A stretch of DNA of 64,000 bases, from the NCBI GenBank assembly GCA_014871385.1, contig CM026424.1, positions 13,978,892-14,042,891 on the forward strand, in the 5' to 3' direction. A program made the translations under genes and the position numbers. The stretch comes from Ceratodon purpureus (lineage: Eukaryota > Streptophyta > Bryopsida > Pseudoditrichales > Ditrichaceae). A model generated the notes under the pieces. It searched no databases. It was not told the DNA's origin and saw only the letters and a list, made by a program, of their open reading frames with translations. This document shows positions 285-37,660 of the stretch, piece by piece. How positions within the stretch are numbered: the stretch's first letter is position 1; the number at the start of each line of letters is the position of its first letter.

Positions 285-3200
285 GTTACTCAAACACAGG
301 ATGTGGTGGCAAAACCATCTTGCCCGATTGACTTGAAGACTGCTATGGAAGGGGAATTGCAGCATCGAATTCAATACAAGTTGGACTCCAACGCCGTCAT
401 CAACAACCTTAGGATCAAACCGTCGGAGAAGTCTCGAATGCTGGTTCCCTTATGCAGGATGATTCCAATGGCCAAGGTAAGACCAGTGGGTGAAATGGGG
501 GTACAACACTTGGAGCGGGAGTTTGTTAAGGGATATAGAGATGGGGACCGCGTCATGTACATCTCCATGTACAACACTGAAGAGGAAACGAAGAATGTGA
601 CGGCGGAGATTATGGCCACTTGGAGCCCTTTATGGAGGGCAGCGAGTGATCGTTTTGATGATGAGATCTCTGGGGACGAGGAGTTGATGCAGTTCTCTCA
701 CAAGATGTTTTTTGTCTGGGAGGGTAATCATCGCCTCTCCGCTTGGCTCCGGCATATCAACAAGCATCATGCGGACGACCCATCCTGGCACATCTCTGTG
801 CATTGCATTGTCCTTGACCCCCGCGGCCAGGTGGGCAATCTCCTGCACGCCATGCACGACATCAACTGGTACGTTCAAAAGTTTTGACTATTTGTTATCC
901 ATATTGAAGTCTATTTCGATTATATTTTATTCGACTTACGTACTAATTTCATATTCAGGTCGACTGAGAATGACCACGTAAAGAGTAATCTTCCAGCAAA
1001 ATTGTTTCGAATCCGCTCATTCGGAATGATGAAGCTGGAGGAGTTTAAAGACCTCTTGCGCCCTGACGAATATGAGGCTTGTTTGAAGAACAGGCCACCG
1101 AACCCGTCATGGTTCCCCTTGACAACTCGTGTTTTTATCGCATTTCTCTACCGAGTAAGTTGTACCTCCTCTCTGTCTTTCCTCGTTTTGGCTCCCTTCA
1201 TTCTTTGCAAGTTCTATTTTGTTCATTTATGAATTCTCTAAGAATTGGTTATCCTTCTACAGCGGGAAATTGCTGCGGCCTCGGATGAAGCAGCTAAAGC
1301 CTACATGGAGAAGACACCGGCGGATGAACAGACTGCATCTGCGATTTGGGATGTCATGAATGACGCGACTGAGAAAATGGTGGACCTCATTAAGAGGAAG
1401 GACTTCACTAAGTACTTGGCAATTGCAAATCCCAGAAACGGAGACGACTTCCTGAATGAGGTAACACCTTCATCTAATTTCAATTAGTATTTTGAAATGT
1501 TACAACATTATGCAATTATATTTTCTAATACTTCTCTACTCCTGGCAGATCAATCGACATTACAGTCTAAACTCTAAACCTGAGATGTCCCTCGATAAGC
1601 TCCAGAAGATCTGTCCAGCTGCCGTTGAGCCCAAATACAAGGCTCGGTGGCTGAGGTGGTGGAACTCATCTCCGAGTTCTCGACTATCTTACAGATTTCC
1701 ACCACTTGAATTCAAGGATACTGCATTCGACCCTTGGTTGAACAGGGCTTCATTTTGGGCTGGGGTATGGTTTCTCAATATCCCTTACCAATTACAACAT
1801 GCTTTCTGATTTCTTTTCTCATTGGTACTAATTCTCATTGGTACTACAGTTGGAGGAAGCCGTCATCAACGAGGTTGAGGACATATTCAAGTCAGAGAAC
1901 CTCAATATCGATTGGACGGCATTTCCTGATGTCCAACAGCCGGGCGATTATGTCGAGAGTTCACGTATTATGTTGTGGGACAAGGCCTTCCCTACGTTCA
2001 TTGGAAAGAACGCTAAGAAGCCCTTCGAGAAGAAGTCCGACTTCGCTAAATTCCCTGGAACTGCTGATGTTGTCAAGCGGGTTATTTACCGGTATATTGC
2101 CTAACTTTTTTGCATTTGCATATTCTAATTCGCTAGAGCTTTCTATGCTACTAACCTTCTAAATTTCTTCTCTTAGGTACTTCAAGCGAGAGCTTGTTTT
2201 GAAGGGGGCCATCACGGTCCAACAGCTCCCCAACTACTTCCGTGCTTGGACGGAGACAACCTCGGACCAGTGTATCTATTCTCCCCAGCAGCTGCAAAGG
2301 TACAAAGCTCCTCACTTGCTTGAGGGATGCTGGTACCTTGATTGCTCTCGTGGTTTCACGATTGACTCAGAGGTCGACGTCAAGACTCTACACGATGGGG
2401 GTGCGGTGGTGGTCGAAGACACAGAGGATGGTGCAGAGGATTTTGAAGGACAGCAAGATCAATCCTCTGCTCCTCCACCGAAGAAAGGGAGAGGAAGGCG
2501 ACTCAAATCTCTCCGTTCTCAGTCGGAGGCATCACAGCAAACCGGTGCGGCGTCTTCTCAGCCAAAACAGAAGGAACCGGAGCCCTCTCCAGGTATTGTC
2601 GTTACGAAGCCTTCTCCAGCTTCTTCGCCGGCTCCTTCCTCAATCAGTGCTTCCGAGGTCACCAGAGGTCTCCTCGAGCAGCGGAAAACCAAGAAATTTC
2701 CACAGACTACCTCTTCCGCTGGAACTCTCAATTCCTCTCAGGTTTATGTCATCAACTCCTCTGTGAATTTGGTTCTATCCCGACACAAGGAACTTGAAGA
2801 CGTTGGTGGCGATCCCGAATGGAACAAGGCTCTAGACATCATTCGAATGGTATGATTCGTTGTTTCATTCTTTCCCTTGAATTCTTATATTCTGTTAACC
2901 TTATATTTTCTAACTCTGATTTCTTGTTTACTCAAGTTTGGGGCAGGCCGCGAGAACCGAGTTCCTGATAGATGCAATGAGGACAATCACTTGGGATTCG
3001 ACTTGATCATTGTCGACGTTCCTGAGAATCTTCCGGTCCCCACTATATCCAATCCCACCTACGTCCCTCCGTCTTGGAACAAACGCGGCAAGGATTATTT
3101 GGAGGACCTCTTCGAGTTCGCAAGACATTACTTGCAGTTTGATGGTGCTCTCTGCATCATCCACAACAACGACCAACGTCTGGCTACGAAGATTTCCGAA

Positions 3201-4283
3201 GTGGCTGCTGCTGATGGCTTCGTGCAGCACCGAGACTGGTGGGGCTTCAATGCACTAGGCTTGGCTCACCCAACGATGCCCGGCTCCTTGGTATGTACAT
3301 CATAATCTTCGCTTGTCTTTGCATTCTACTAAGTTTTCTTTTTAATTACACTCACATATTTCTGTTTCTCGCAGTCTCTTCGATTCTGGGTGCGCGTCTT
3401 CATTCGTGGTGGTTCTCCCCCATCCAAGTTTTCTTTTCAAACGAAGAAATCCGATGTCGTTTACAACGACCTCCACATTACCGAGAGTGATGCCATTCTC
3501 AACTTCACCGATGCAGACTCGCAGCTCATGAATGGGGAGGTGCCGTGGAGAGGCCCGAGGGAGAAAGCCCCGGAGATGATGCAGGGCATCATTGAGGAGA
3601 TGACCAAGCCCGGTGACATAGTCTTCGAATGGTCGGCAGGAACAGGTAATCCTCCATTAACAGTTTCTGTATTTCCAATCCTCTGATTTTCTCCACAGGG
3701 ACTCACTACTTTTCTGTGCTACGTGTTTTCAGGTGCCTCCCTCAAGGCTTGCCAGAGTATTGGTCGTCATATTATAGCTTGTGAGGAGGACAAAGCCATA
3801 TTCAACGCCCTTCTCAAACCGTATATGGCTACGTCATCTGCCATGGGCCCTCCAAAACATCCTAGGCCGGCAGCAGCAGAGGAAGCACCTGCAAAGAGAT
3901 CAAGAAGACCTGATAAGTGGTGTAAGTCTTCTATTTTTTGTTCAAATTCTCCAAGCATTGCTTCTCTTTGCACCTCTACGTATTCAATCTAACCACAATC
4001 GGTTTTCTATTGCAGAGTAGTTTCGGCAACACCGCCACGTGGGCCAACATCAGTGTCCACTCCATCGTGGCGTCTTCGTTCCAGCCCGATTCAGCCTTTT
4101 AGACTTCCGGACTACGCAGAGGACTTAGCACAGGCGTTTCAATCTGGAGCCCTCACATATGTTCCTAGTCGGCCAACTACTTTTGATCCCAGGGCCCTTT
4201 TATTCGTCGATGACGAGGCGGTAGAAGGAGATTCGGAGTCATCTAGTTCTGAGAGTGAAAGTAGCGACTGTAGCATGTTGTGA
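285..4283 (+). CDS. ParB-like domain + beta-class DNA methyltransferase-like protein (5' end unresolved)
   Basis: Exons read as 285-868, 959-1154, 1263-1460, 1549-1764, 1850-2091, 2177-2849, 2937-3290, 3375-3645, 3733-3921 and 4018-4283. All junctions are GT/AG and keep frame, giving about 1,060 residues. Counting from 285, residues 52-180 resemble the ParB/sulfiredoxin fold, with FVWEGNHRLSAW (GNHR at 147-150) matching ParB box II. Residues near 580 (KKGRGRRLKS) are AT-hook-like within a Pro/Ser/Gln-rich linker. Residues 724-731 (FDLIIVDV, then PEN) sit where motif IV (DPPY) falls in amino-methyltransferases. GDIVFEWSAGTG at 901-912 fits the SAM-binding motif I. The order IV then I is that of beta-class enzymes. 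ParB plus beta-class methyltransferase fusions are known in bacteria and phages. Here the catalytic motif is DVPE, so activity is doubtful. Function is inference; a TE or host origin is open. Confidence 0.55.
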
Positions 4284-5862
4284 GGTTGAAGGAGGCTTCG
4301 GTCTATTGTTGTTTTCATTTGATTTGATTTGATTTAATTGGAGTTCATTGGGTAATTCTTCGTCTACTCTACTTCCCTGAACGTAAACTTGTTATAATTC
4401 TCATGTCCAATTTGTCTCCGTGTTTGTAAAGGATGAAATGTCACAACTGTAATGCTCAAAATATAATATGAAGAATGAAATGTTACAAAAGAAAGGCTCA
4501 AATATAATATTGTGCTGTTATTTATATTTTACTCATTCAAAATCCCACATTTGCATAGCCATGTTACCTATTCTTGACTTGGTGTACATCTTGGTTTCTT
4601 CTACTCCATTATTCTACACGAACTCTGAAATATTCCACGGACTTCTAAGACCATTTCCTTTAGTTGCTTTTTCTTTTCTTATTTCTAGAATCATCTATAT
4701 TATCTAAAACCATCATGCTGGAATACTCGTATCTAGATCCAGTGAATGACCAAATCTTAAGGATTGTATTCGAACACCCCACTAGACTTCACAGTACTAA
4801 TCCTTCGAAGGATATACAGTCCAACTCTTGTCCATATCAAACCAGCAAGTTTTGCCATCCGATATGATCACTTCGGGCAGCTGAACAACTGGATTCTCAT
4901 CGACGTTCGATAGCAAGGGATACGGGATTAGGGACAATTCCATAATACGGAGAAGCTCATTGGTACAAAGCACTGTCCAACGCCATTCACCTTCACCAAC
5001 ATGGAGGCTTCCGATGTGCCTAAACGGTGGCAGGTCCATGCCTCGTTCCCTAGCGCGCTCCACCTCCAGCAGCCACGGCCGCAGCTCCTCATAACTCGCC
5101 GGTGCCTTTGGGGGCAAACCTACAGCCGCTCTCGTCCTCCTGGATCTCGCATTACACACCTTCGGCATCGCGCAACACACTAAATTGTTGTAGTCTTAAA
5201 ACGTTTGACGCAAGCCTACAGATTGACCCCCCCGAACTCCATCGCTACCTTCGCATACAGCACAGAATGCCAAGGACTGTATGACTATCCTAATACGCCA
5301 CCTAGAGACAAGCTCAAGAAACCAAGAGTGACCTCCTTCTCTGGAACCCAGCTTACCAAGTGTTGTTTCATGATGAAAATCTCCTACTTCTATCACTCAA
5401 ATTCAGATGCTTCGCTGCCTAGGAAGAGAGAGTAATCTTCGATGAAGACAAGGACTCTGACAAGGTATATCTTGGTTTCAGCAGTCAAGATATTATACAC
5501 GAATTTTGAAATATTCTAGGAAGTTTTCAAACCTTGCCTCCTTTATGTTCTGTGATATTTGTTTTTTTCCTTGTGCATTTACATAATCCTATGAAAGAAT
5601 TATTTGTTTGATCTAAAACTGAACGCCTGATCATTGTATCTTGCCTAAACCCATGACAAATCTAAAGGAATGTATGCATGACATCATCATGACATCAGCC
5701 CTAATTTGTATCTTAGAGAACAAACGTAATAAATTCTTACCAGAGATAACCCTAATTTCCACGGTAATATACTCTTTTTCTAAAAAAAGTGTCAAAATTA
5801 AGCCTTAATTTAGTAATTTTCCACGGTTATAGGGTCTACTTTGCTTTTGAAAATTTTCCTAA
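4284..5862. other. Spacer between methyltransferase-like gene and transposase
   Basis: Begins with the probable 3' UTR of the upstream gene, including a short GATTT repeat near 4320-4336. A minus-strand frame at 4797-5180 stays open for about 127 codons and has a protein-like composition. It matches no family I recognise and could be chance or a decayed gene piece. Nothing else was seen. Confidence 0.4.
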
Positions 5863-5875
5863 TTCTCAATTCTGT

Positions 5876-5923
5876 GCTCTCCATTCTGCGCTCACCGCTC
5901 TCCGCTCTACGCTCTCCGCTCAC
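5876..5923. repeat. Short imperfect tandem repeat (GCTCTCCGCTC type)
   Basis: Several imperfect copies of an 8-10 base GCTCTCCG / GCTCTACG unit lie directly upstream of the first recognisable transposase codons. The repeat blurs the 5' boundary of the transposase exon and may mark a rearrangement or a 5' truncation there. Confidence 0.6.
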
Positions 5924-5940
5924 GTACGAACTTTCCCCCT

Positions 5941-8900
5941 GTTGATTCATATCAATGGAAGTATATAGATTGGAAATGGCAAACTGAATTTGCTTTTGAG
6001 CATCGTAACTTGCGGTTGGGATTAGCAACAGATGGGGTCAATCCATTCTCAGTGAAGAGATCGACGTGGAGTACTTGGCCGGTGCTAATTATGAATTATA
6101 ATTTGCCACCGTGGATGACTACAAAGAAGCATTTCATCATGTTAAGCTTAATCATCCCCGGCAAGAAGTCTGTTACGGGCGAGAATTTTGACATATATCT
6201 GCAGCCATTATTGGAGGAATTGCAGACGCTATGGCATGAAGGAGTACGAACGGACGATGCTTCTATGTATCAAGGTAGCCGCAATTTTAATATGAAAGCT
6301 ATGCTCATGTGGACCATGCACGATTTCCCAGCCTACGGAATTGTGGCTGGTTGTGTAACCAAAGGGTACCGTGGCTGCCCAATTTGTGGCGAGCACACAA
6401 TTTCCAGAAGGTCTCTTGCTCTCCGTAAGAACGTCTATGACAATCAGTACAGAAGATACCTACCTTGTGATCATGTATGGCGACACGCACGGCCAGAGTT
6501 TGGTGGCGTCGCAGAGTCACGCTTGCCTCCCCCGAAGGTGTCTGCTGAGAACACAATCAGGTACGGTCGTCTAAGAGAAAGCTGGCAGGCATATGGAGCG
6601 GGACCTGCGTCATCGGATCCTGCACGCATCTTCGGGGTGAAGAGGGTTTCAGCCCTCTTCCAGCTCCCACACTGGAAGGTGCGTCCCGAATCTTTTTGAA
6701 GTTGTCGTCATATACAGACATTACAATGTACTTTCTGTGTCTGGTAATCTCTCTTTTGAATGTGTACGAGGAAGTCTTTCGTGAATTTGTATGATGGGTA
6801 TTTTTTGATCGGAGCGTGATCATGAATTTTGTGCTGGTCAGAACCTGGACGACATGATGTTCAAACTTTTTGTATCCCCTGTCTAATTCCACGTGACGCT
6901 GATGTCATTGAAAAGTTTGGTATGTCGCTGTATTGACTGAAAACTCTATTACATGGCCGTATAGATAGGATAAACCGATCTTTAACTTGAATGTACTTGT
7001 TAAGTGCTCAATATGGTTCATAATCAGAGTTTAAATGATTAAGGTGGCGTCCATTTCTTAGTATGCATTAGTGTATGTCTGATTAATCTGGATTGCTCAG
7101 CATCTGCATGCTCTTTCTGTCTGTCTTCTACTACATTCTAACTTATAACATGAAGTTTTGGTTCTTTGTAATGAGCTGTGTCGCTAATTTCGCACGATAC
7201 TGATATGAACTTAAATTGACAGGACTTACCCATCCGCAATACTTTGGACGTGATGCATATAGAGCGAAATGTTTCTGACAATGTATTGAAGCATCTCTTT
7301 GGAGATAAGGATACCTTGGAAACTCGTCGTGACATGGTGCAAGCAGATCGAATGCACAACCTACACCTGCAACTACAAAGGACGGGGAATTATTTGAAGC
7401 CAAGGGCCCCATATGTATTCACTGAACAAGAGAAGGCTGACTTTCTGAGGTTGGTGTCCAGTACGAGTGTTCCTAGCGGCTACAGCAGTACCTTAACCAA
7501 GCATGTAGGCGAACGTAGATTAAATGGCCTGAAGTCACACGACCATCACGTTCTCATCCAGCAGTTGCTGCCCGCTGCAATTCGAAACAGTCTCTCCAGT
7601 GGAGTGCGTGAAACCATTATCCGTCTCGGAAATGTCTTTCAGCGAATATGTGCGAAGGTGATACGGCGGTCTGAAATTGAACCTTTGAGGACATGCGCTG
7701 CTGAGGTTCTTTGCTTGCTTGAGTTGAACTTCCCACCTGGATTTTTTGATATCATGACACATCTAATAGTGCACTTAGTAGACGAACTCGAAATCTGTGG
7801 TCCTGTGCATGCACGATGGTGTTACTCTGTGGAGCGTTATTTAGGAGTCCTCACGAAATATGTCAGGGACAAGTCTAAACCGGAGGCGGGCATGGCGACA
7901 GGGTACATGGTTGATGAAAGCTTAGGTTTTTGCACGGAGTATTTCTCATTGTACGAGCACACTAAAAGCCGGGTATGGGATCCAGAAGAGGAACTGAAGG
8001 ACGGGGGAGAATGTCTACTCGGCAAACCAGTGGCTAAACGGCTAAGTTACAGGGATTTGAACTTTGTACATGATTATGTAATTAAACACTCAATCCACAC
8101 TGAAGAGCTCATGAGGTAAGTCTATAAATCTTGCTTTCCACTGTCATTATGTTCTGATGTTTCATTGTGAAATGTATATTGTATCATGCTTGAGAGGTGT
8201 AAACTGTTTCGCATGATGGGCCAGCATCATTGAAATTGTGACTATGGATTTTTCAGAGAATGGGAGGAGCAGCGAAGGCAATTCAAACTACGTCGCCAAG
8301 CGTTTGTGGCCTCCCTTCGTAGACGCCCTGGACAGCAGATTCAGTACCCAGCGGACCTGTCTACTCCCTTTCCTGATTTCGGAACTTGGCTCAACGCTCA
8401 TGTTCGACTGTTGAAGGAGGAAAGCTTTCCTGTATCGTCTGAATTGGAATCATTGCATTGCCTGCCATCTGAGCATGTATGGAGCTTCCAAGCCATGTGG
8501 GCATATGGTGCTCACTACTCATGCAACAACGAAACCACGCCAAGTACTGTTGCATTTGACTCTGGAATCGCAGCTATTCCTCCCTCCGAAACCTGCACAG
8601 AAATCGATGTGGGGATATTAAAAAGTATCATCTTAGTTTCATATCTGGGATTCAACTGTGTGTTAATGGAAGGGTCGTGGATAAAATCCTCTAGTGAAGG
8701 TCGACGAGTAATCAAGAAGGATGCTTATGGATTTTGGGTTGTTCAGTACATGTGTAGGGAAGTCCGGGAGAAAGACAATCCTTATGTTTACCCATCCAAT
8801 GTATCATAAGTTTTCTTTGTAGGGGATTCCAAAGACCCAGCCTGGAAAGTTGTGCTTCGGCATGATCCTCGAAGTAAACGCATACAAGGTGAACGACTAT

Positions 8901-9130
8901 TTCATGTTTTTGGAGCGCCCGGTTCACTAAGACCAACTTTAAGCACAAGATCCATCGGAGTCCATGAGGTTGGCCCTTCTGGCAATGGTACGAACGTCCA
9001 CGAAATAGTCGAAGAGGTTGCAGCTGAGCAGTTTAATGCATATTTGCGAGAAGAAGAGCGGCCGGACTCTGACGCACATTTGGACGACAATCAATGGCTT
9101 GATGAAATGGAAATTCAGTACGTGGAATAA
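5941..9130 (+). pseudogene. CACTA (En/Spm) TNP2-type transposase, interrupted by one stop codon
   Basis: Pieces read as about 5941-6678, 7223-8115 and 8257-9130, with in-frame GT/AG junctions. Conserved TNP2 blocks occur in order: LGLATDGVNPF, a zinc-binding-like CPICGEH block, LDVMHIERNV, then YSVERYLGVLTKYVRDK followed by MATGYMVDESLGFCTEY (DUF4218-type region), and a C-terminal block ending in KVVLRHDPR. TNP2 cuts and joins CACTA transposon ends. The frame is broken by TAA at 8807-8809, where relatives normally have Gln just before VF(Y/F)V; past it the same frame continues with VFFVGDSKDPAWKVVL to 9130. The N-terminus is unclear: no good ATG or acceptor precedes 5941, so it may be 5'-truncated. 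Flanked by a methyltransferase-like gene and a possible accessory gene on the same strand. Confidence 0.85.
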
Positions 9131-17000: not shown

Positions 17001-19145
17001 GATGACCATGCCTTCGGTAACTGACCAGCAACCTGAGCCAACCCATAAACGAGACAGAAAAGGCAACCCTACAGAACCTTGAGGGGTTCACCAAACCATC
17101 CGAAGAAACCGACTTATAAAATACTTCACCACAAACCATTCCTCACTTTTCGTAGAGTCACAGCAAAATCAGAAAACCATAGCCCGACCAACTAAAACAC
17201 ACCCCTACAGTTACACTAGCACGTAAGCATAATAATACACCCTTAGTTAAACGACTACGCCTGACGAATCCTCTCAAACCGTACCTGCAGCGGCCTCAAC
17301 AACCTTCTCAACCTCTTTCACCGCGCTGCCAATATTCTCCGCGATCTCACCGAGAGACAGCGAGTGAGGTTCCTCCGCAGGTGGCGTCGACTCACTGCCC
17401 TCCTCAGCGGAAGGTGCCTCAGCTTGGACAGCTTCAGTGGCTGGGGCATCCTCCACTGCAGGAACTTCCTCTGTAGCAGCAGCTGAATCTTCCTCAGCAG
17501 CGGGTGCCTCTGCTTGGACAGCTTCAGTGGCTGGGGCATCCTCCACTGCAGGAACTTCCTCTGTAGCAGCAGCTGAATCTTCCTCAGCGGCGGGTGCCTC
17601 TGCTTGGACAGCTTCAGTGGCTGGGGCATCCTCCACTGCAGGGACATCCTCCACAGCCGCGGATTCCTCAGTAGCACCAGGAGAATCTTGCACTGCTGAC
17701 ACCTCCTCCGCTGCAGCTGTCTCTTCTGGTGCATCTACAGATGCAGGCGTTTCACTCACCATGTTCGCGCTGCGGAAAAACGTCGCAAATGGGTTCGACG
17801 CACCTCCCGCCCCCACGTTCGTGTTGATCGAGTCGTTGATCGATGTCACGTCCACCTGCGGCTTCATCGTCAGCGCGGCCCTTCCCCTCTCGATCTTCAG
17901 CACTCGCACAGTCACCTCCTGGCCCACCGTCAGCAGCGTGTCCACCGCCACATTCTCTCCCCCTTCCGTGATCTCTGATCCCCGCAGGAACCCTTCCTCA
18001 CCCTCCTCCACGAACTCGATGAACGCCCCGTTCCTGATGATGTTCTTCACCGTCCCCTTCAACTCCTGCCCCTTCTTCAGCTTCGTCGTCTGCCACACCC
18101 ACATCCCATCCCACATCAGAATTCCGGCAATCGCAACACTCCCGCATTCCAATCCATACCCGAACATTCTCTCCACACCATTTCTGCCAATCGACTTGCA
18201 AACGCTTCACACATCCCTTCATTCCGCAGAACAACACTCAACACTCCACACAATCGACCGCATTCTCCCCGCATTGCCTATCCCACTCTATACATTCCCA
18301 CCATGTCCTCTCCCACTCAACTCCCCATCACATACACCTACCTTCTTGTCGTCGTTCGACCGCGAATTCGCCTTCGCGCCCCTCCCGGCGATCTTGCCCC
18401 GGTTCATCGGCCTCCCGCTCCCATCCTCCTGGCTCCCGGACCCGGTGCCTGACTCGCCTCCCGACCGAGATGCCTGCTGCTCCGACTCGCTCTCCTTGTC
18501 CCGCATCGACAGCGCGATCCTCCCCGCCGTCTCGTTCAGCTCCACCACCGTCACGCTCACCTCCTGCCCCACGCTCACCACCTCGCTCACCTCCTTCACG
18601 TAGCTCGAGCTCAGCTGCGATATGTGCACCAACCCGTCCGTGAACGCCCCGATGTCAACGAACGCCCCGTAGCTCTGCACGGCTCGCACCTTGCCGCTGA
18701 ACACGGCCCCCGGCACCAGCTGCTCCTTCGTCACAGTGATTTCCCGTTTCGCACCACCGCTTTGGCGCTGCATGGTGTTGCCCCTCTGCAGCCTCTTCGC
18801 AGGAGCATCGGAGCTCTCGGTTGCTTCGGCCGCAGCGGCGACCTCGGGCGCCTTCTCCTCGGCGTCTGCTGCTGATTCTTCCGAACCGACGCTCACGGCA
18901 GCCTCCTCCACCGTCACATTGCCCTCCACGGACGCGAGGATCCTCCGACCTCTAGGGTTGAAGTTCGAGGTCAACCTCGCGCCAAAGAGGCTCGGACTCT
19001 GCACTCTCAATGGCCTCAACGGCGCACCATCCACCAAGGAGCACGAAGTCGACAAGGTGACGGCGGAGTTGCGCGGAAGCCTGGGCGCGGCATTGGCGAG
19101 CAGAAGAAAAGCACTGTCCCTCGTGGGGAGAGCAAAGTACGCCAT
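14094..19145 (-). CDS. Plastid PSRP-7/EF-Ts polyprotein (PETs), full-length copy
   Basis: Exons on the minus strand: 19145-18342, 18089-17285, 16509-15920, 15753-15511, 15244-15083, 14899-14585 and 14435-14094, all GT/AG and in frame, about 1,086 residues. Residues 1-70 look like a chloroplast transit peptide. S1 RNA-binding domains lie at about 143-217 ([20 protein letters not shown]) and 274-346 ([16 protein letters not shown]). An acidic Ala/Glu-rich 30-residue repeat follows. Two EF-Ts modules come next: exons 3-5 ([20 protein letters not shown]) and exons 6-7 ([21 protein letters not shown]). EF-Ts recycles GDP-bound EF-Tu during plastid translation; the S1 part corresponds to ribosomal protein PSRP-7. 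Such fusions are established in green algae and plants. Exons 1-2 lie in an inverted near-identical repeat whose partner (34774-37660) lacks EF-Ts. Confidence 0.93.
17274..17285 (-). promoter_or_regulatory. Alternative 3' end: stop codon inside retained intron 2
   Basis: If the donor after 17285 (GCAG|GTACGG) is not used, the frame reads only three more codons and stops at TGA 17276-17274. That would give a protein with both S1 domains and the acidic repeat but no EF-Ts. The right copy has the same arrangement, with a stop at 36733-36735. Separate PSRP-7-type and full-length products are known for this gene family; use of this site here is inferred. Confidence 0.5.
17391..17645 (-). repeat. 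90-bp in-frame tandem repeat, about 3 units
   Basis: The minus strand carries two full and one partial copy of a 90-bp unit encoding [14 protein letters not shown] followed by [16 protein letters not shown]. It lies between the second S1 domain and the EF-Ts part of PETs. The units are almost identical, which implies recent expansion. The inverted partner has one extra unit. Confidence 0.9.
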
Positions 19146-20661
19146 CCTGCCTCAAACAAAACCCCTACTCATCCGTTCAGATTCTCGAACAATAATGCTA
19201 TCCAGTAGTCGAAATTGACAACGTTCCTCGACTCAAAAAACACTGAACATTCTAGATTGTACTAAACCCTTGCAATGGAGAATGGAGCAGAAATTGCGCA
19301 AGCCTTGTTTAAGAAAAATCCTCCCAAGCTCATTGAGTAATTCGAACGAGTAGTTTCAAAGGAACTTTAATAACAGAAATAAACCTGGAACTGCTGGCGG
19401 ACAGCAGCCCCGCAACGCAACGTTATCGGAAAAAGGACTGGGAAGCATAATTGACTAAACCCCTGACAGAATTCAGGAGGAGAGAGACGAATGGGAGAAG
19501 TGAAGGGCGGTTCTGACCTGGCTTTGGAGGTGCGCGTGTGGTGACCTGCTCTCCCCTTACGGCACCGTCGTAGTCGTCCTGTCCAGCTTCCTTCGCTACC
19601 GCAATCGGGATTGCGAGCTGAAGAAACAAAGGTCGGAGATGGAGATGGAGAAGAGGATCAGTCTCCAGCAGCAGCAGCAATGGAGTCCAAGTGATGAGCC
19701 CACGCAGCGTTGCCCCAGCTTGTGGCCTTCTCCGTGTGCTATCCGAACCTTCTCCACCGTGGGCTGCTTTCATTGGTATTAGCTCTTGATATCCGACGTG
19801 GACAGAGTTTTGGTCCACGTGGATGGCAGTTTGGATCATCCATGAACGGCCTGCGTTTGAGATGAGCTTCTTCGACTATGGTGGTCCGGCTATCCACGGC
19901 CTGGGCCCTGGTGGTGCTGCTTTCTGTTTCATGTCAAGGACATGATTCCCTGAGAATCTCACTCCAGGTTGGACATCGTAGAGTTCCGAGTTCTTTGTCA
20001 AGGCATTTGGTGTTTGACTTCAATCGTAAATTTTCTTGGACATAATTTTATCTGCTCACTCTAAATACGGGAGGTAGTAGATATGGAAAAGTGGTTTTTA
20101 AGTACAAAGGGAACTAGTTTTTCATGATGGAATGACAACGAAACTAGTTTTTCTTTAGTTTAGAAACCACCAAGTTTTTAGGCATCAAATTTAGTCACAT
20201 CACCAAAAAAATTCATGTCTCTTAACAATTTTAAGTAACAAACAATAATACAATAAAACAAAAGTCATTACATCTTCTAATAACTAAAGGTGATTGTGAA
20301 GATAATTCTTTTATTGGTTGCACAATGTAAATGGGATGCTTTCACATGACTCACAAACATTAAATTTCTCTTATACATAGGTGGTCCTCTGTGATTTTAT
20401 ATATGTTTCTCAAGTTATAATGTTATAGGACCATTGGTAACATTTTGCTAATAAATGATGCTTTTTTTATTAGTACATGCCAAAATTCTGCATAGAATAT
20501 GTTGAGATCACATTTATATATTTAAAAAGTAAAATAATTTCAAAGTCTTATCATGCTTGGTCAAAGCATCTAAAATGACCAATTTTCCAAAATCATCGTA
20601 ATTTAAAAACAATATTTATTTTGTATATAGCATGCTTCCACATGATATATTCATAAATTTA
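19146..20661. other. Upstream region of the left PETs gene (inside the inverted repeat)
   Basis: Promoter and leader side of PETs. A minus-strand frame at 19423-19839 is open for 138 codons but resembles no protein. It contains a plausible splice donor (CCAG|GTCAGA) and is more likely a transcribed leader. AT content rises beyond about 20030. The whole stretch is repeated inverted at 33258-34773. Confidence 0.5.
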
Positions 20662-23250
20662 ATAATTAGAATTTGTTAAGGTACTATGTGTTAAAAGTAT
20701 ATTTATTAGAAGTGTTCAAAGGTCCAAAATAGTTGACTAGAAAATCCAATGGACAAGTTCAACTTGCTATCATAGGTTACTAGCGGCTTAGGCAAATAAA
20801 AGTCAATTCTAAGTTTGCCTTAGAGTATCTAGGAAAATTTGAGTTTGTTTTCCTAAAAAAATTTAAAAAAATTTAAAAATTATAAAATTGATGTTGCCCA
20901 GGATTACATGAATTTAAGAGGCATGAAGGAAAATCTAGCAAAATGGTACGAAATATGTTCTAAAGTGACTTTAACACATTATGAAGATGACGTTCTCCGT
21001 AAATTCAGATGGCACATATGCTTCATGCAAAATCCACAAGGGTGTAACCATAGATGAAAGTAACCATAATCATTTATGAAGTTGTATGAATACATTACTT
21101 ATATCAAATTATAATTTCAAACCACCCATTTTAAGATATTATTTTTTGAATCAATTTACCACTGTTTGCACTTTAATTTAATTATTAAGCAAAATAATGT
21201 TCAAGTTGCTAGTAACCTACAATAGTGTCTGTTACAATAAACACATAGACCATTGCTTCTAATCAGGCAAATAAGAATCGATCCAAAAAGCCATTACATA
21301 ATGGTTGTAGAAGGTGGGAGCCTCCACATCCAATGGATTTTACATTGGACCAAGATATGGCTCTAAATACTCCTATTTTTAGCAATATTTGCTGTAAAAG
21401 TTAAATTCAAAATTTTATTGTATAAATTAAGATGATTTTGTAAATAAAAATATTGATAATATTTTTAGTGATATAGAATATAATAAATTAAGTAAGGCTA
21501 CACGTTGCTGTGCACAACCGTCGACGAATTACACTTTTTAAATGAAAATTATAGAATTTGTAATTGGTGATTACCTTAAAGACTTTCATATGCTTTGAAC
21601 TATAAAAGATGTGTAGTGATGGTTTTCAATGTGGAAATTTGAAAATTGCTTGAAGACCACTTTGTGAAAAAAAATCCAAAACAAATCAAAACTAATTAGA
21701 AATGAAAGGTGTTGATATAAAAATAAAATAAAATAAAATTTATACAAAAAATGAATATTGTTTGAAATAAATTTTTGAATAGCCATCTATATAATCCATA
21801 TAACCTTTCAAACAACCTTTCAAGTTTCCAACTCCAACTATATTGGCTGATTTGTGAAAATCTTCACTTTTTCTTACATACTAGTTTGAATACAATTTCT
21901 TCACCGTGTGTAGATGCTGCAAGCTTAAAAATGTTTATTAAAAAACTCTTCATGTTACAAAGATAGTGACACATTCACCAGTTTGACTTCTGTGGATAAA
22001 AGGATACCATATCACCAAAGGACGCCCTTATTATCTTCATGCTTATTATATTCACTTAGACTCCCCACTACAAGCAGCCACACCAGCTATAGCTTGTACC
22101 ACAGTGGCATCTACAAACAACCACACTTCCCTTCAATACTTTATTTAATTGAATTGATACATAGTCAACCCGTATTACAAATGGTAGAAGGATTAATTTA
22201 TCAAGCAATCAAGACATTTGCTTAAGTATATAGTCTGAGGACTTTGGTTCTTACTGTATTCAGCCTAGTAGAATTTTGAGCCATATGAACTTTTAGCATT
22301 ACACTATATAAACCTTTTTATAGTGTAATCTGAAGCATGAAAGTTTAAATGAACCATATAGCTTGAGTCTTGTAGCTTGCATATGTGTATGTTCACAGGT
22401 CACCAAAAGTCATCTTCCTTATTTACATCACAAATATTGACACAACTCTATGTGTTGATACAACAAGCTCCTAGCAAATCTCTTGGAACACATCTACACA
22501 TTGAACTAAATCCGAAGATAGTTGAGAAGGTAGAGATCCATCAAAACAAAGCTAAGTTTGCATTAGCTTTGTCCTCCAGCAGTTTAAGTCCACTGTGAGT
22601 CAAAGTAAATAGAAGAAAGACTTAGTGGGGCTATGCTCAAAGTAAAATAGAAGAAAGACTTAGAGAGGTTAAGGCTCGTAATAGCAATCTGGTTAGAGCT
22701 TAAGTAAACTGAAGAATATTCCGCCAACAACTTCAATCTCTTTGTTCTTTTTATGACCATGTAAGAGCAATGATACCAAAGGACACGACGACGATGACAC
22801 TACTGATTTTTCTTCATATTTTTCTAGGCTAAAATTCTCTCCAAGTTCCTCGTCGACGGAATTATAATCGGTGTCAATTGATCCATCATTTTTTATTAAC
22901 TACTGCATGAAATAACAAAGTTTTAATTTATTTTTTTGAAAAAGATAAGTGGTATTTTCACAAAAATATAATATTTTGACATTTTAAGACATTACTATAA
23001 TGACGAGCTAAAATATAAAAATTGAGTGGCCCGATTTTAAAAAGACCCTTTCATTTCTTTTTAAAATGATTTGAGGTATAATTATGCTTTTATATAATTA
23101 TATTCTTTAGAATGATATATTAAGAAACTTAAAAAAATAACCAAAAACAACATTACTACAACTTCTTACATAAGTAATAGAAAATCAAATCACTTTAATA
23201 TCCATTTCAATTAATATTCAATCAACCTCAAATCAATTCCAAAGTAATGG
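20662..23250. other. AT-rich spacer, left part of the inverted-repeat core
   Basis: Very AT-rich DNA with homopolymer runs. Short open frames occur but none has recognisable motifs or gene-like composition. No gene is called. Confidence 0.5.
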
Positions 23251-25060
23251 GCTAGAAAATATTTATATAAACACACGTACAAATTAATATTTAAAAATAT
23301 TTAAAAATTACTAGATGAACTTGATTTGTGTAATTAAATCTCAAATTTATAAACATCATCTATGATGGCTAATAATTATTTTTACTACATTAATATGATT
23401 TTCTTACTAGCGTAGCCAAAGGTCATGTTCACATCAAAAATAAGATTGGATACAATTCACAAACCTTTCAAAAATAGAAACTCAAGTAAATTTAAATATA
23501 ATATTAAAATTTTACAACAAAAAGTTTTAATGGCCTCAAATAAAGTGACTTTATGATTTTGATTTTATCAATCAATCAATGAAAGATCTCTCTAATGGTA
23601 AGGTTTCCTTAGCCGCCTTTATAGACACACCCATTAATAGTTTGTATAAATTTTTAAATTTTTTAAACAACTTTATTCAATAATTTTCAAGAAGAAAAAA
23701 CATTTTTATTTTTATGATTTCTTTAAAAGCTTGAGTTAGTCTTTCATACATCATTGACATTGCACTAGTAGAAAAGAGTGCTGAGAACACCAAGGCAAAA
23801 CACCAAAAAATTGTAATGGTGTCTATTTTTTTAGTCAAGGATCTTGATTGGCTGTGGCCCTCTTTTGGTGTAGAGCTCAAAGGATTCTCTTTGTTTGGTT
23901 GTAGGGACCACGCAATACTAAGGTGTAAATGAGCAGGAACGAATCAGCCCGAGTTCTTCCTAGAGGCCTGGCAGCAGGGACTCCGCAGCCTGTTGCACTC
24001 ATGCCAGCATGAAGTTAAAGGAAGCCCGCTTTAGGCCCAGAACAATCACCCCACATACTATTCCCAATAACTCAGAATTAATCAAATCAATTAATTCACC
24101 ATAAAGTTTCTTGAGTTTCTTGTCATATGCTGGCAGCCTGACAGGTGTTGTGCATGCTAACTCAATTCAACATGAGCGGAGGGGCTCCCTGCCTGCTCGC
24201 CACACAAACCGGCCCCATGCATCAAGTCAAACTACATTTAGAAACTTGCTGCCAGGGTGTAAATGAGCTCGATGAATGGATAAAACCAGCCTTCATCCAT
24301 CCATTGGGGTTTGCTTAGTATTCAGATGTCCCATAAGTGTTGTATCGCAAACATCAGTCCTTGGGTATAAAGCCTGTCACTCATCCCTACTCTCACACAC
24401 ATAGATGTCTATCAGCGAAGAGCAAACTAGGAATGCAAAAGTCACTCTAAATCAACATCCATCAATGGAGTCCTATTAACTTCATTAATGGAGTCCCAAA
24501 ACAGAGTTCCAAAACTGTTCCATCAATGGAGTCCTAAAGCTGTTCATGGACAACATGGGATTTGGAAATTCATCCAATCCATGATAAAGCATCCCCGAGA
24601 GATCATTGGGACGTCGAATCTTGTCAGACTAGTAGGGCCGGACCTACTCGGGGAAACAAATTCAGCAAGGACTGTAATAGCAAATGAAGGTGTCCAACTA
24701 CACCAAAAAAATTCTTAGTACACCATTTCATTGACGCCTAATATAATAAGTAACCCGGTGTTCTCCCTGGTGTACTGGACGCCTTTTTCTACTAGTGTTG
24801 GCTTTGAACCATACCATTTTGGCTGCATAAAATGAATATTGGAATGGAAAGTATAACATTAGAATGATATTTTTATGGATGTGTATTTACATGCGTGAAG
24901 AGGCTACCATTTGCATTCCCTTTCTCTTGAGAGATTACAATTATATATGAGATTAGCAATGGAAATGGTAGATCCATTTTGCCCATACTCTCATAATCAT
25001 TCATGCTTTCTCTACTCTATGGTGCCTCTTCCTTCCATTTTATAGTATAAACAGCTTCTT
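23251..25060 (+). repeat. Left arm of an older, diverged inner inverted repeat (with a CACTA insertion)
   Basis: The minus strand of 27375-28184 matches this stretch at intervals: GATGGCTAATAATTATTTT, GATCTCTCTAATGGTAAGGT, CATACCATTTTGGCTGC and CATTTTGCCCAT occur in the same order in both. Similarity is clearly lower than in the outer repeat. The left arm is longer because a 1,035-bp CACTA element is inserted in it. Confidence 0.7.
23763..24797. mobile_element. Complete non-autonomous CACTA element, TSD TTG
   Basis: Starts CACTAGTAGAAAAG and ends CTTTTTCTACTAGTG, a good terminal inverted repeat. The 3-bp flanks are TTG at 23760-23762 and TTG at 24798-24800, the duplication length expected for CACTA elements. 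No transposase is inside. Subterminal ACACC / GGTGT motifs are present at both ends. The inverted paralogous site at about 27656-27661 has a single TTG and no insertion. Confidence 0.93.
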
Positions 25061-33257: not shown

Positions 33258-36200
33258 CAAATTTATGAATATATCATGTGGAAGCATGCTATATACAAAA
33301 TAAATATTGTTTTTAAATTACGATGATTTTGGAAAATTGGTCATTTTAGATGCTTTGACCAAGCATGATAAGACTTTGAAATTATTTTACTTTTTAAATA
33401 TATAAATGTGATCTCAACATATTCTATGCAGAATTTTGGCATGTACTAATAAAAAAAGCATCATTTATTAGCAAAATATTACCAATGGTCCTATAACATT
33501 ATAACTTGAGAAACATATATAAAATCACAGAGGACCACCTATGTATAAGAGAAATTTAATGTTTGTGAGTCATGTGAAAGCATCCCATTTACATTGTGCA
33601 ACCAATAAAAGAATTATCTTCACAATCACCTTTAGTTATTAGAAGATGTAATGACTTTTGTTTTATTGTATTATTGTTTGTTACTTAAAATTGTTAAGAG
33701 ACATGAATTTTTTTGGTGATGTAACTAAATTTGATGCCTAAAAACTTGGTGGTTTCTAAACTAAAGAAAAACTAGTTTCGTTGTCATTCCATCATGAAAA
33801 ACTAGTTCCCTTTGTACTTAAAAACCACTTTTCCATATCTACTACCTCCCGTATTTAGAGTGAGCAGATAAAATTATGTCCAAGAAAATTTACGATTGAA
33901 GTCAAACACCAAATGCCTTGACAAAGAACTCGGAACTCTACGATGTCCAACCTGGAGTGAGATTCTCAGGGAATCATGTCCTTGACATGAAACAGAAAGC
34001 AGCACCACCAGGGCCCAGGCCGTGGATAGCCGGACCACCATAGTCGAAGAAGCTCATCTCAAACGCAGGCCGTTCATGGATGATCCAAACTGCCATCCAC
34101 GTGGACCAAAACTCTGTCCACGTCGGATATCAAGAGCTAATACCAATGAAAGCAGCCCACGGTGGAGAAGGTTCGGATAGCACACGGAGAAGGCCACAAG
34201 CTGGGGCAACGCTGCGTGGGCTCATCACTTGGACTCCATTGCTGCTGCTGCTGGAGACTGATCCTCTTCTCCATCTCCATCTCCGACCTTTGTTTCTTCA
34301 GCTCGCAATCCCGATTGCGGTAGCGAAGGAAGCTGGACAGGACGACTACGACGGTGCCGTAAGGGGAGAGCAGGTCACCACACGCGCACCTCCAAAGCCA
34401 GGTCAGAACCGCCCTTCACTTCTCCCATTCGTCTCTCTCCTCCTGAATTCTGTCAGGGGTTTAGTCAATTATGCTTCCCAGTCCTTTTTCCGATAACGTT
34501 GCGTTGCGGGGCTGCTGTCCGCCAGCAGTTCCAGGTTTATTTCTGTTATTAAAGTTCCTTTGAAACTACTCGTTCGAATTACTCAATGAGCTTGGGAGGA
34601 TTTTTCTTAAACAAGGCTTGCGCAATTTCTGCTCCATTCTCCATTGCAAGGGTTTAGTACAATCTAGAATGTTCAGTGTTTTTTGAGTCGAGGAACGTTG
34701 TCAATTTCGACTACTGGATAGCATTATTGTTCGAGAATCTGAACGGATGAGTAGGGGTTTTGTTTGAGGCAGGATGGCGTACTTTGCTCTCCCCACGAGG
34801 GACAGTGCTTTTCTTCTGCTCGCCAATGCCGCGCCCAGGCTTCCGCGCAACTCCGCCGTCACCTTGTCGACTTCGTGCTCCTTGGTGGATGGTGCGCCGT
34901 TGAGGCCATTGAGAGTGCAGAGTCCGAGCCTCTTTGGCGCGAGGTTGACCTCGAACTTCAACCCTAGAGGTCGGAGGATCCTCGCGTCCGTGGAGGGCAA
35001 TGTGACGGTGGAGGAGGCTGCCGTGAGCGTCGGTTCGGAAGAATCAGCAGCAGACGCCGAGGAGAAGGCGCCCGAGGTCGCCGCTGCGGCCGAAGCAACC
35101 GAGAGCTCCGATGCTCCTGCGAAGAGGCTGCAGAGGGGCAACACCATGCAGCGCCAAAGCGGTGGTGCGAAACGGGAAATCACTGTGACGAAGGAGCAGC
35201 TGGTGCCGGGGGCCGTGTTCAGCGGCAAGGTGCGAGCCGTGCAGAGCTACGGGGCGTTCGTTGACATCGGGGCGTTCACGGACGGGTTGGTGCACATATC
35301 GCAGCTGAGCTCGAGCTACGTGAAGGAGGTGAGCGAGGTGGTGAGCGTGGGGCAGGAGGTGAGCGTGACGGTGGTGGAGCTGAACGAGACGGCGGGGAGG
35401 ATCGCGCTGTCGATGCGGGACAAGGAGAGCGAGTCGGAGCAGCAGGCATCTCGGTCGGGAGGCGAGTCAGGCACCGGGTCCGGGAGCCAGGAGGATGGGA
35501 GCGGGAGGCCGATGAACCGGGGCAAGATCGCCGGGAGGGGCGCGAAGGCGAATTCGCGGTCGAACGACGACAAGAAGGTAGGTGTATGTGATGGGGGGTT
35601 GAGTGGGAGAGGACATGGTGGGAATGTATAGAGTGGGATAGGCAATGCGGGGAGAATGCGGTCGATTGTGTGGAGTGTTGAGTGTTGTTCTGCGGAATGA
35701 AGGGATGTGTGAAGCGTTTGCAAGTCGATTGGCAGAAATGGTGTGGAGAGAATGTTCGGGTATGGATTGGAATGCGGGAGTGTTGCGATTGCCGGAATTC
35801 TGATGTGGGATGGGATGTGGGTGTGGCAGACGACGAAGCTGAAGAAGGGGCAGGAGTTGAAGGGGACGGTGAAGAACATCATCAGGAACGGGGCGTTCAT
35901 CGAGTTCGTGGAGGAGGGTGAGGAAGGGTTCCTGCGGGGATCAGAGATCACGGAAGGGGGAGAGAATGTGGCGGTGGACACGCTGCTGACGGTGGGCCAG
36001 GAGGTGACTGTGCGAGTGCTGAAGATCGAGAGGGGAAGGGCCGCGCTGACGATGAAGCCGCAGGTGGACGTGACATCGATCAACGACTCGATCAACACGA
36101 ACGTGGGGGCGGGAGGTGCGTCGAACCCATTTGCGACGTTTTTCCGCAGCGCGAACATGGTGAGTGAAACGCCTGCATCTGTAGATGCACCAGAAGAGAC

Positions 36201-36660
36201 AGCTGCAGCGGAGGAGGTGTCAGCAGTGCAAGATTCTCCTGGTGCTACTGAGGAATCCGCGGCTGTGGAGGATGTCCCTGCAGTGGAGGATGCCCCAGCC
36301 ACTGAAGCTGTCCAAGCAGAGGCACCCGCCGCTGAGGAAGATTCAGCTGCTGCTACAGAGGAAGTTCCTGCAGTGGAGGATGCCCCAGCCACTGAAGCTG
36401 TCCAAGCAGAGGCACCCGCCGCTGAGGAAGAATCAGCTGCTGCTACAGAGGAAGTTCCTGCAGTGGAGGATGCCCCAGCCACTGAAGCTGTCCAAGCAGA
36501 GGCACCCGCCGCTGAGGAAGATTCAGCTGCTGCTACAGAGGAAGTTCCTGCAGTGGAGGATGCCCCAGCCACTGAAGCTGTCCAAGCTGAGGCACCTTCC
36601 GCTGAGGAGGGCAGTGACTCGACGCCACCTGCGGAGGAACCTCACTCGCTGTCTCTCGGT
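33258..36660 (-). repeat. Right arm of the large near-identical inverted repeat
   Basis: Mirror of 17330-20661. Clear differences from the left copy begin at about 36,670 in exon 2. It is 90 bp longer owing to one extra acidic repeat unit. Confidence 0.93.
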
Positions 36661-37660
36661 GAGATCGCGGAGGGTATCGGCAGCGCGGTGAAGGAGGTCG
36701 AGAAGGTTGTTGATGCCGTTACCGGTACTCTTTGAGGCGGCTTGCCGATCCGTTTACTGGCCAGTGGGTTTTCTACACGCATGCTATGTGTGTTTTTTTT
36801 AGGGCTGGAGCGCTGTTTAGCTTAGAAGTATGTCGCAGGGGTTTGGGCTAATTGTTATTTCTGATCTGCGCGCTCTAATATGTTTTTTCCTTGTTCTCCC
36901 GTCGACATTGACATAATTTTCACGATAGGGTTTCTCTGTGAATTGACATTTTTTCTGACATTTTGGTTTAAACCTCAAGGATAAGTAGTGTTGTAGCAGA
37001 GGGTGTTGGTGCCGGAATGGTGCGGAGGTGGTGTGGATCAGGAGGTTTCTCTCTATTTACTCTTAGTGAGCCTACATGTCCTTTTTGATGCACATGTAGT
37101 TCAGAATACAGGGTGAGGTAATGAATTAGGTTACGTTGAGAAGAGACAGTTTGGTGGAGGCGATCCGGGGTTCTAATCCTGATTGGTTAGTTCCTGGGGA
37201 CACAACGATTTGGCTATTAGAACTGGGAGAGATTAGTGAATCTGAATTGAGAAATCATGTAACACGATGATAATTTGAATTTGACGACATTCAAAAACGC
37301 TTGACTCAATGAACCTGCGTCTCCGTGGCTTTATTTGTGTCTCAGTTTCATTTTTGTTATTTTTCACCTTGAGCCCGTTTCCTCGCCAATGTTCTTTGAA
37401 CTTATGTGAGATTTGTAAATGGTGGGTGAGAATGACCTATGGTATGAGGGTGTGTGATGAATGATATGGTGTTATGAGGTCTTTGAGGGGTTGATGTATG
37501 TGCATTTTCAGAGCTCCTCCACATCGGAGATAAAGATGATGCCTCATCCGACGAGGGCACTGAGGCACCTCCTGCTACTAGCGCAATGGAAGAACCCAGA
37601 GCCGAAGCTCAGCCGGCAGAAGCAAATGCTGAGTCCTCGGTAATGCTGAGGCCTCGGTAG
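34774..37660 (+). CDS. Truncated PETs paralog: PSRP-7-like S1 protein without EF-Ts
   Basis: Exons 34774-35577 and 35830-36724 match the left PETs gene almost base for base: transit peptide, two S1 domains, then four rather than three acidic 30-residue units. A third exon at 37512-37660 is recognisably related ([15 protein letters not shown]) but clearly diverged. It ends at TAG 37658-37660, produced by a 17-bp tandem duplication (37625-37641, 37642-37658) that shifts the frame. Past the stop the old frame persists briefly (PQEAETVLEAAPELVA), then jumps to sequence homologous to the left gene's 3' flank, so all EF-Ts exons are deleted. If intron 2 is retained the protein stops at 36735. Either product could serve only as the PSRP-7-like part. 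Expression is unknown; it may be functional or a pseudogene. Confidence 0.85.
36274..36618 (+). repeat. 90-bp in-frame tandem repeat, about 4 units
   Basis: Three full units and one partial, starting at 36274, 36364, 36454 and 36544. Each encodes [14 protein letters not shown] then AEAPAAEE plus a variable end; the second full unit reads EESAAATEE where the others read EDSAAATEE. One unit more than the inverted partner. Confidence 0.9.

Follow-up and report, generated by a model that had tools for sequence, protein, structure and literature searches.

A giant MULE-type transposon family of the moss Ceratodon purpureus may carry a gene for an amino-methyltransferase-fold protein

RESULTS AND DISCUSSION

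We analyzed a 64,000-nucleotide stretch (the window) at C4:13978892-14042891 in the 362-Mb genome of the moss Ceratodon purpureus and, within it, a spliced gene whose product combines a C-terminal domain of the beta-class amino-methyltransferase (MTase) fold with an N-terminal domain whose likeness to ParB is unproven. Comparison with its relatives leads us to favor, with modest confidence, the reading that this is an accessory gene of a giant, multicopy transposon family of the Mutator-like element (MULE) type, whose product would methylate the element that carries it.

A spliced gene with relatives across the genome

Ten exons on the forward strand, from 285 to 4283, join into a single open frame of 1062 residues; every one of the nine introns has a GT donor and an AG acceptor, and the other two frames of the joined exons contain 28 and 63 stops. 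An earlier note, made from the letters of the window alone, had proposed about 1,060 residues over ten in-frame exons with the motifs FVWEGNHRLSAW, KKGRGRR, FDLIIVDVPEN, and GDIVFEWSAGTG; both the frame and the places of the motifs agree with the following model.

285..868, + strand: exon 1 (first in-window exon), carrying the ParB-like domain and FVWEGNHRLSAW (splice model; homologous exon with GNHRL in 18/18 other readable copies)
959..1154, + strand: exon 2 (GT-AG, open frame)
1263..1460, + strand: exon 3, middle region (GT-AG, open frame)
1549..1764, + strand: exon 4, middle region (GT-AG, open frame)
1850..2091, + strand: exon 5, middle region (GT-AG, open frame)
2177..2849, + strand: exon 6, linker with KKGRGRR (splice model; linker weakly conserved)
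2937..3290, + strand: exon 7, motif IV half of the MTase domain, FDLIIVDVPEN (splice model; D[QT]PF at this site in 20/20 other copies)
3375..3645, + strand: exon 8, MTase motif I, GDIVFEWSAGTG (splice model; Pfam match)
3733..3921, + strand: exon 9, end of the MTase domain, GRHIIACEED (splice model; Pfam match)
4018..4283, + strand: exon 10, acidic, Ser-rich C terminus and stop (splice model; similar C-terminal open reading frames [ORFs] downstream in other copies)

Because the exon at 285 opens at an acceptor, the gene starts upstream of the window, where candidate exons were seen that may be joined to it. One upstream stretch (L009, 9735-9839) holds a candidate exon with five tandem YxPTSPx heptads (YMPTSPV/YEPTSPA), which resemble the C-terminal repeat of RNA polymerase II; such heptads of the window copy were not seen in the copies G22, G21, or G27. 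Since 20 of 20 other copies contain a related gene whose parts follow one another as they do here, we take the spliced ten-exon gene to be real and more than a chance run of open frames.

A genome search with the Pfam model PF01555 (N6_N4_Mtase) gave at least 32 matches, a lower bound set by scoring 150 of 773 candidates. These comprised 29 of the motif-I-exon type, the family copy L001, and two apparently other proteins; the latter, at C1:5958254 and C5:15306119, are ORFs of 567-569 amino acids that match a different part of the model and appear unlike the family. Twenty of the 29 were fetched as 10-kb loci, all with the MTase and middle parts and 18 with the N-terminal part within reach, which in the remaining 2 lies beyond the end of the locus. 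Counting L001, there are at least 21 further family copies, the kind of copies elsewhere in the genome that the earlier note had proposed to look for. The window gene is 41-45% identical to other copies over the N-terminal exon (11 copies) and 29-33% over the MTase domain (7 copies). The ratio of nonsynonymous to synonymous substitution rates (dN/dS) was 0.08-0.30 in all 11 scorable pairs; of the 19 pairs tried, frame led to the exclusion of 7 and saturation to the loss of 1. Stop codons were omitted, and the pairs share copies and are therefore not independent. As far as these rough gene models go, they show purifying selection on the family protein.

A permuted methyltransferase fold with altered motifs

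That the C-terminal domain has a permuted beta-class N6/N4 amino-methyltransferase fold, as had been proposed for the window, is well supported by sequence comparison. PF01555 matched 8 of 8 family members (best, 2.6e-10), and a family profile search retrieved DpnA (1.5e-8, over profile positions 15-219 of 223) and CcrM (3.4e-8), with matches spanning the domain; the permuted order, motif IV and then motif I, holds for the window model as well as for 20/20 copies. The window protein itself scored 26.6 bits against PF01555 when searched whole, under the 26.7 cutoff, through residues 882-937, and 29.7 bits when its MTase domain was excised, the match being limited to the C-terminal quarter of the model.

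Canonical motif IV is [DNS]PP[YFW], and canonical motif I is FxGxG. Motif IV reads D[QT]PF in 20/20 other copies, DQPY in L001, and DVPEN in the window copy, while motif I reads D[LVF]xASTG in 20/20 other copies and EWSAGTG in the window copy. Given the noncanonical motif IV, we describe the protein as a divergent relative rather than a canonical active enzyme; the window copy looks like a diverged member that may have little or no methylating activity. We would assign methyltransferase activity less firmly than the fold, and least firmly to the window copy. These same motifs, noncanonical at both sites, are what an alternative would predict in which the MTase domain no longer methylates and serves as a DNA- or S-adenosylmethionine-binding accessory factor, aiding the transposase or blocking silencing by occupying DNA. 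We consider that alternative rather unlikely, as the Asp, Pro, and aromatic residue of motif IV are retained in 20/20 other copies and the protein appears to be under purifying selection.

The transposon carrying the gene

In aligned blocks covering the gene together with its 5' flank, three copies (C3, C5, and C12) resemble one another at 88-98%. A multi-ORF transposase, encoded on the other strand and divergent from the MTase gene, lies upstream in each of the 4 copies whose flank was read to a sufficient length, the window copy included; the homologue beside the latter (C4:13966997-13970603, outside the window) has a stop-free model and a core of 43% identity (E 4e-145). The main transposase ORFs of G22 and G27 are separated by 8 synonymous changes and 3 nonsynonymous ones. 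The G22 element, on C3, is 24.5 kb long, begins GAGGGAGGCTATGACATGAGCA, and closes with an imperfect inverted repeat; a perfect 9-bp target duplication, CAACATGCA, borders it on either side. G21 ends as G22 does and has a perfect 9-bp duplication, TGCAAGGAC, on either side; such duplications were therefore present in 2/2 copies whose both ends were read. The terminal inverted repeats are imperfect and about 20 bp long. A 9-bp duplication fits a MULE, since the range given for these elements in a published survey is 8-11 bp (PMC6446971). Ten of the 12 CATGAGC/GCTCATG boxes in G22 stand inside the terminal 80 bases, clustered at both ends, and are therefore likely to be transposase-binding sites.

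Two candidate features of the family were rejected. The right boundary of E27 (L027) was not accepted as an element end and is read as the insertion of a long-terminal-repeat element, because a gag-like ORF lies beyond it (in the sense of the gene, starting near 7815 of L027). Apparent arrays of direct and inverted repeats on the 3' side of the gene were dropped as binding-site arrays; in the 5/20 loci checked they are TA-rich microsatellite DNA of 80-85% AT. Other observations on these loci are as follows. In the window copy, the transposase is separated from the ParB-MTase gene by a tandem array of ~200-bp units (L009, about 3600-9070), in which a CCCTACTGTC...GACAGTAGGG palindrome occurs, as does a tRNA-like GGGATTTGAACTC box. 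G22 has a third gene near its right end on the minus strand (L034 on C3; G22 23050-24276), with a coiled coil and a Cys/His finger by eye; similar ORFs occur in G21, and no significant match was found near the window copy. G22 also contains CTGTACAGA 12 times against 0.22 expected, partly within an 83-bp tandem repeat, and its right flank (L038) bears a host-gene-like ORF series, Sec23-like by eye, just outside the element.

The earlier note had tied the gene to a different element, a neighboring CACTA transposon:

5863..8119, + strand: CACTA/EnSpm transposase ORFs, Transposase_21 and DUF4218 (Pfam 1.1e-67 and 5.8e-35)

These ORFs lie 1.6 kb downstream of the MTase gene on the same strand, an arrangement that would suit a module of prokaryotic type that the CACTA element had captured for its own use. 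At E 1e-5, a CACTA transposase match was found in 0/32 stretches (the 20 other copies, additional flanking DNA for three of them, and the DNA upstream of the window copy), most copies being read only about 4 kb past motif I. As it is absent from all 32, we regard the CACTA element as an incidental neighbor, and the gene's service to it, set against a MULE-type transposase in 4/4 copies, as the least probable of the explanations weighed here. What stands of the proposed modification system used by a transposon is the placement of the gene within one; its partner is the MULE-type transposase.

The N-terminal domain

The motif GNHRL is present in 18/18 other readable copies, and GNHR also occurs in the window copy. 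In our reading it may be the P motif (G-x-x-R box) of ParB, whose conserved Arg is needed for nucleotide binding (PMC12704722). No ParB model was listed for the domain in Pfam and NCBIfam at E up to 10; its PHROGs matches were all at E 0.023 or worse and unannotated, and a PDB profile search gave no ParB chain. Alignment by hhalign to an 85-sequence ParB set (narrow, badly trimmed, Neff 2.2) gave a probability of 0.3%; of 100 decoys with shuffled columns, at least 8 scored better. Against a diverse 7-sequence set the probability was 0.17%, with 72/150 decoys as good, or 0.13%, with 97/150 as good, once an insertion was trimmed; two negative controls, the middle domain and the MTase domain, reached 0.20% and 0.24%, respectively, against the same set. 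Subthreshold DndB matches over the GNHR motif were seen in 4/12 members (best, 0.016). We treat these as weak evidence because unrelated names score similarly in this domain: PtuB (0.0043), SatS (0.011), DUF5397 (0.024), and thymidylate synthase (0.031). Fold searches with the N-terminal structure model returned nothing significant, sulfiredoxin and Noc rows being among the insignificant matches. Of 124 viral stretches that fit the pattern of the domain, 0 were confirmed as relatives, and no phage match to it was found. With no significant profile match we do not class the domain as ParB, and we call it ParB-like as a still unproven reading. The ParB-MTase fusion that the earlier note had proposed is thus supported in its MTase half and unproven in the other: the profile check it had suggested returned N6_N4_Mtase and no ParB model.

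What the element might do with the gene

The protein would comprise, from its N terminus to its C terminus, a ParB-like domain, a middle domain, a weakly conserved linker, and the MTase domain; its gene and the transposase stand head to head. In the mechanism we propose, the N-terminal domain would bind the element's own sequences, perhaps as a clamp dependent on nucleoside triphosphate; the MTase would place N6-methyladenine (6mA) or N4-methylcytosine (4mC) on element DNA; and the mark might protect the element against silencing or flag it for transposition. A more elaborate version is possible, if doubtful: MULE-type elements in a land plant would carry a self-marking system in which a nucleotide-gated ParB-like clamp loads and spreads and the fused MTase writes 4mC/6mA, evading silencing by 5-methylcytosine (5mC) or aiding recognition in transposition. 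The lineage of the window copy would then have been reworked at motifs IV and I and by added N-terminal heptads possibly coupling it to transcription.

Several points weigh against an accessory gene of a MULE-type family that methylates its own element. Motifs IV and I are noncanonical in every copy inspected. The N-terminal domain has no significant match to a ParB profile among Pfam, PHROGs, NCBIfam, PDB profiles, and two purpose-built ParB profiles, and its predicted structure model is poor. The transposase is without a Pfam MULE match, which is why we name it MULE-type and not MULE; against the SWIM finger, frequent in the DDE transposases of MULEs, it reached E 0.36 only, its motifs were read by eye, and its predicted structure model (pLDDT [predicted local distance difference test] 33) was too poor for a fold search.

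Two further points against it also bear on rival explanations. In rough spliced models, 14/20 copies have 1-4 stops and/or 1-4 frameshifts, due in part to approximate exon edges, and 6/20 are free of both, several of these being cut N-terminally by the locus end (in L014, one stop falls inside the N-terminal exon). Such damage would be expected of inert passenger DNA, without function for the element, as in Pack-MULEs, and MULEs do pick up extra ORFs and host fragments, as described in PMC6446971; with the full architecture kept family-wide and dN/dS at 0.08-0.30, we hold this to be highly improbable. The other point is that no credible terminal repeats were found for the window copy's own element. 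Together with the intact frame, the altered catalytic motifs, and an identity to other copies of only 41-45% in the N-terminal exon, this would agree with a host gene domesticated from a transposon. We judge domestication quite unlikely, given the stop-free transposase homologue alongside, oriented as in the mobile copies, and given that the left end of the element may lie beyond the fetched DNA.

Comparison with known systems

Brown, red, and green algae have transposon-borne proteins of a similar ParB-MTase kind (PMC12477816). Sola1-1_Ec32, as described there, is a giant 21.5-kb DNA transposon with a ParB-like plus N4/N6 methyltransferase protein of ~1100 amino acids, encoded opposite the transposase as in the moss element (PMC12477816). 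Compared by description only, the moss element differs in being MULE-type, with 9-bp duplications, and not Sola1. The agreement with the algal accessory proteins thus extends to the MTase, the orientation, and the size, the ParB part being unproven. ParB-fold fusions to N6_N4 MTases are more frequent in phages (PMC12704722). In our search of viral sequences with the MTase profile, 13 of 353 candidates were confirmed, and 5 of the 13 were run against Pfam. One of them, L052 (431 amino acids), fuses ParB_N (3.3e-7) to N6_N4_Mtase; another, L048, is ParB-like by eye, without a Pfam ParB match. Like the moss protein as we tentatively read it, L052 places a ParB-type domain ahead of a beta-class MTase with permuted motifs; it differs from the moss protein in being compact, with a glycine-rich motif I, a significant ParB_N score, and neither introns nor a transposase.

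Bdelloid N4CMT is likewise eukaryotic, a permuted PF01555 protein, and transposon-linked; unlike the moss protein it is a chromodomain host gene that silences transposons and is not transposon-borne (PMC8885841). Among accessory genes of MULEs, the closest parallel in function is VANC, an accessory protein of VANDAL elements, themselves a MULE group (PMC6446971), that counters silencing (PMC5735166, PMC10398659). The accessible parts of those reports do not describe VANC as a methyltransferase, and an anti-silencing role for the moss protein would be by analogy. Neither "methyltransferase" nor "moss" occurs in the main text of the MULE survey (PMC6446971). The statement that no plant system of this kind has been described holds at most for land plants, since similar algal transposon proteins are known (PMC12477816): in the open-access literature, as far as it was available, we found no land-plant or moss case of a ParB-MTase transposon. 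What appears to be new is a cargo of ParB-MTase type on a MULE-type element, and in a moss, its algal kin being already known.

Plants silence transposons with 5mC. An element family that encodes a bacterial-type amino-methyltransferase of its own, maintained by purifying selection, could place a second mark on DNA that the host pathway may fail to recognize, and our comparisons suggest that MULE-type elements may chemically mark their own DNA in this way. If that is true, then together with the algal cases the same kind of module would have been adopted by at least two transposon superfamilies (Sola1, in a brown alga, and MULE-type, in a moss), a sign that it brings a real benefit. Such mosses are amenable to culture and to long-read sequencing.

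Elsewhere in the window, at 17274-19875 and 34044-36735, two near-identical ORFs, translation-factor-like by eye, lie on opposite strands and form an inverted duplication whose members differ in internal repeat number.

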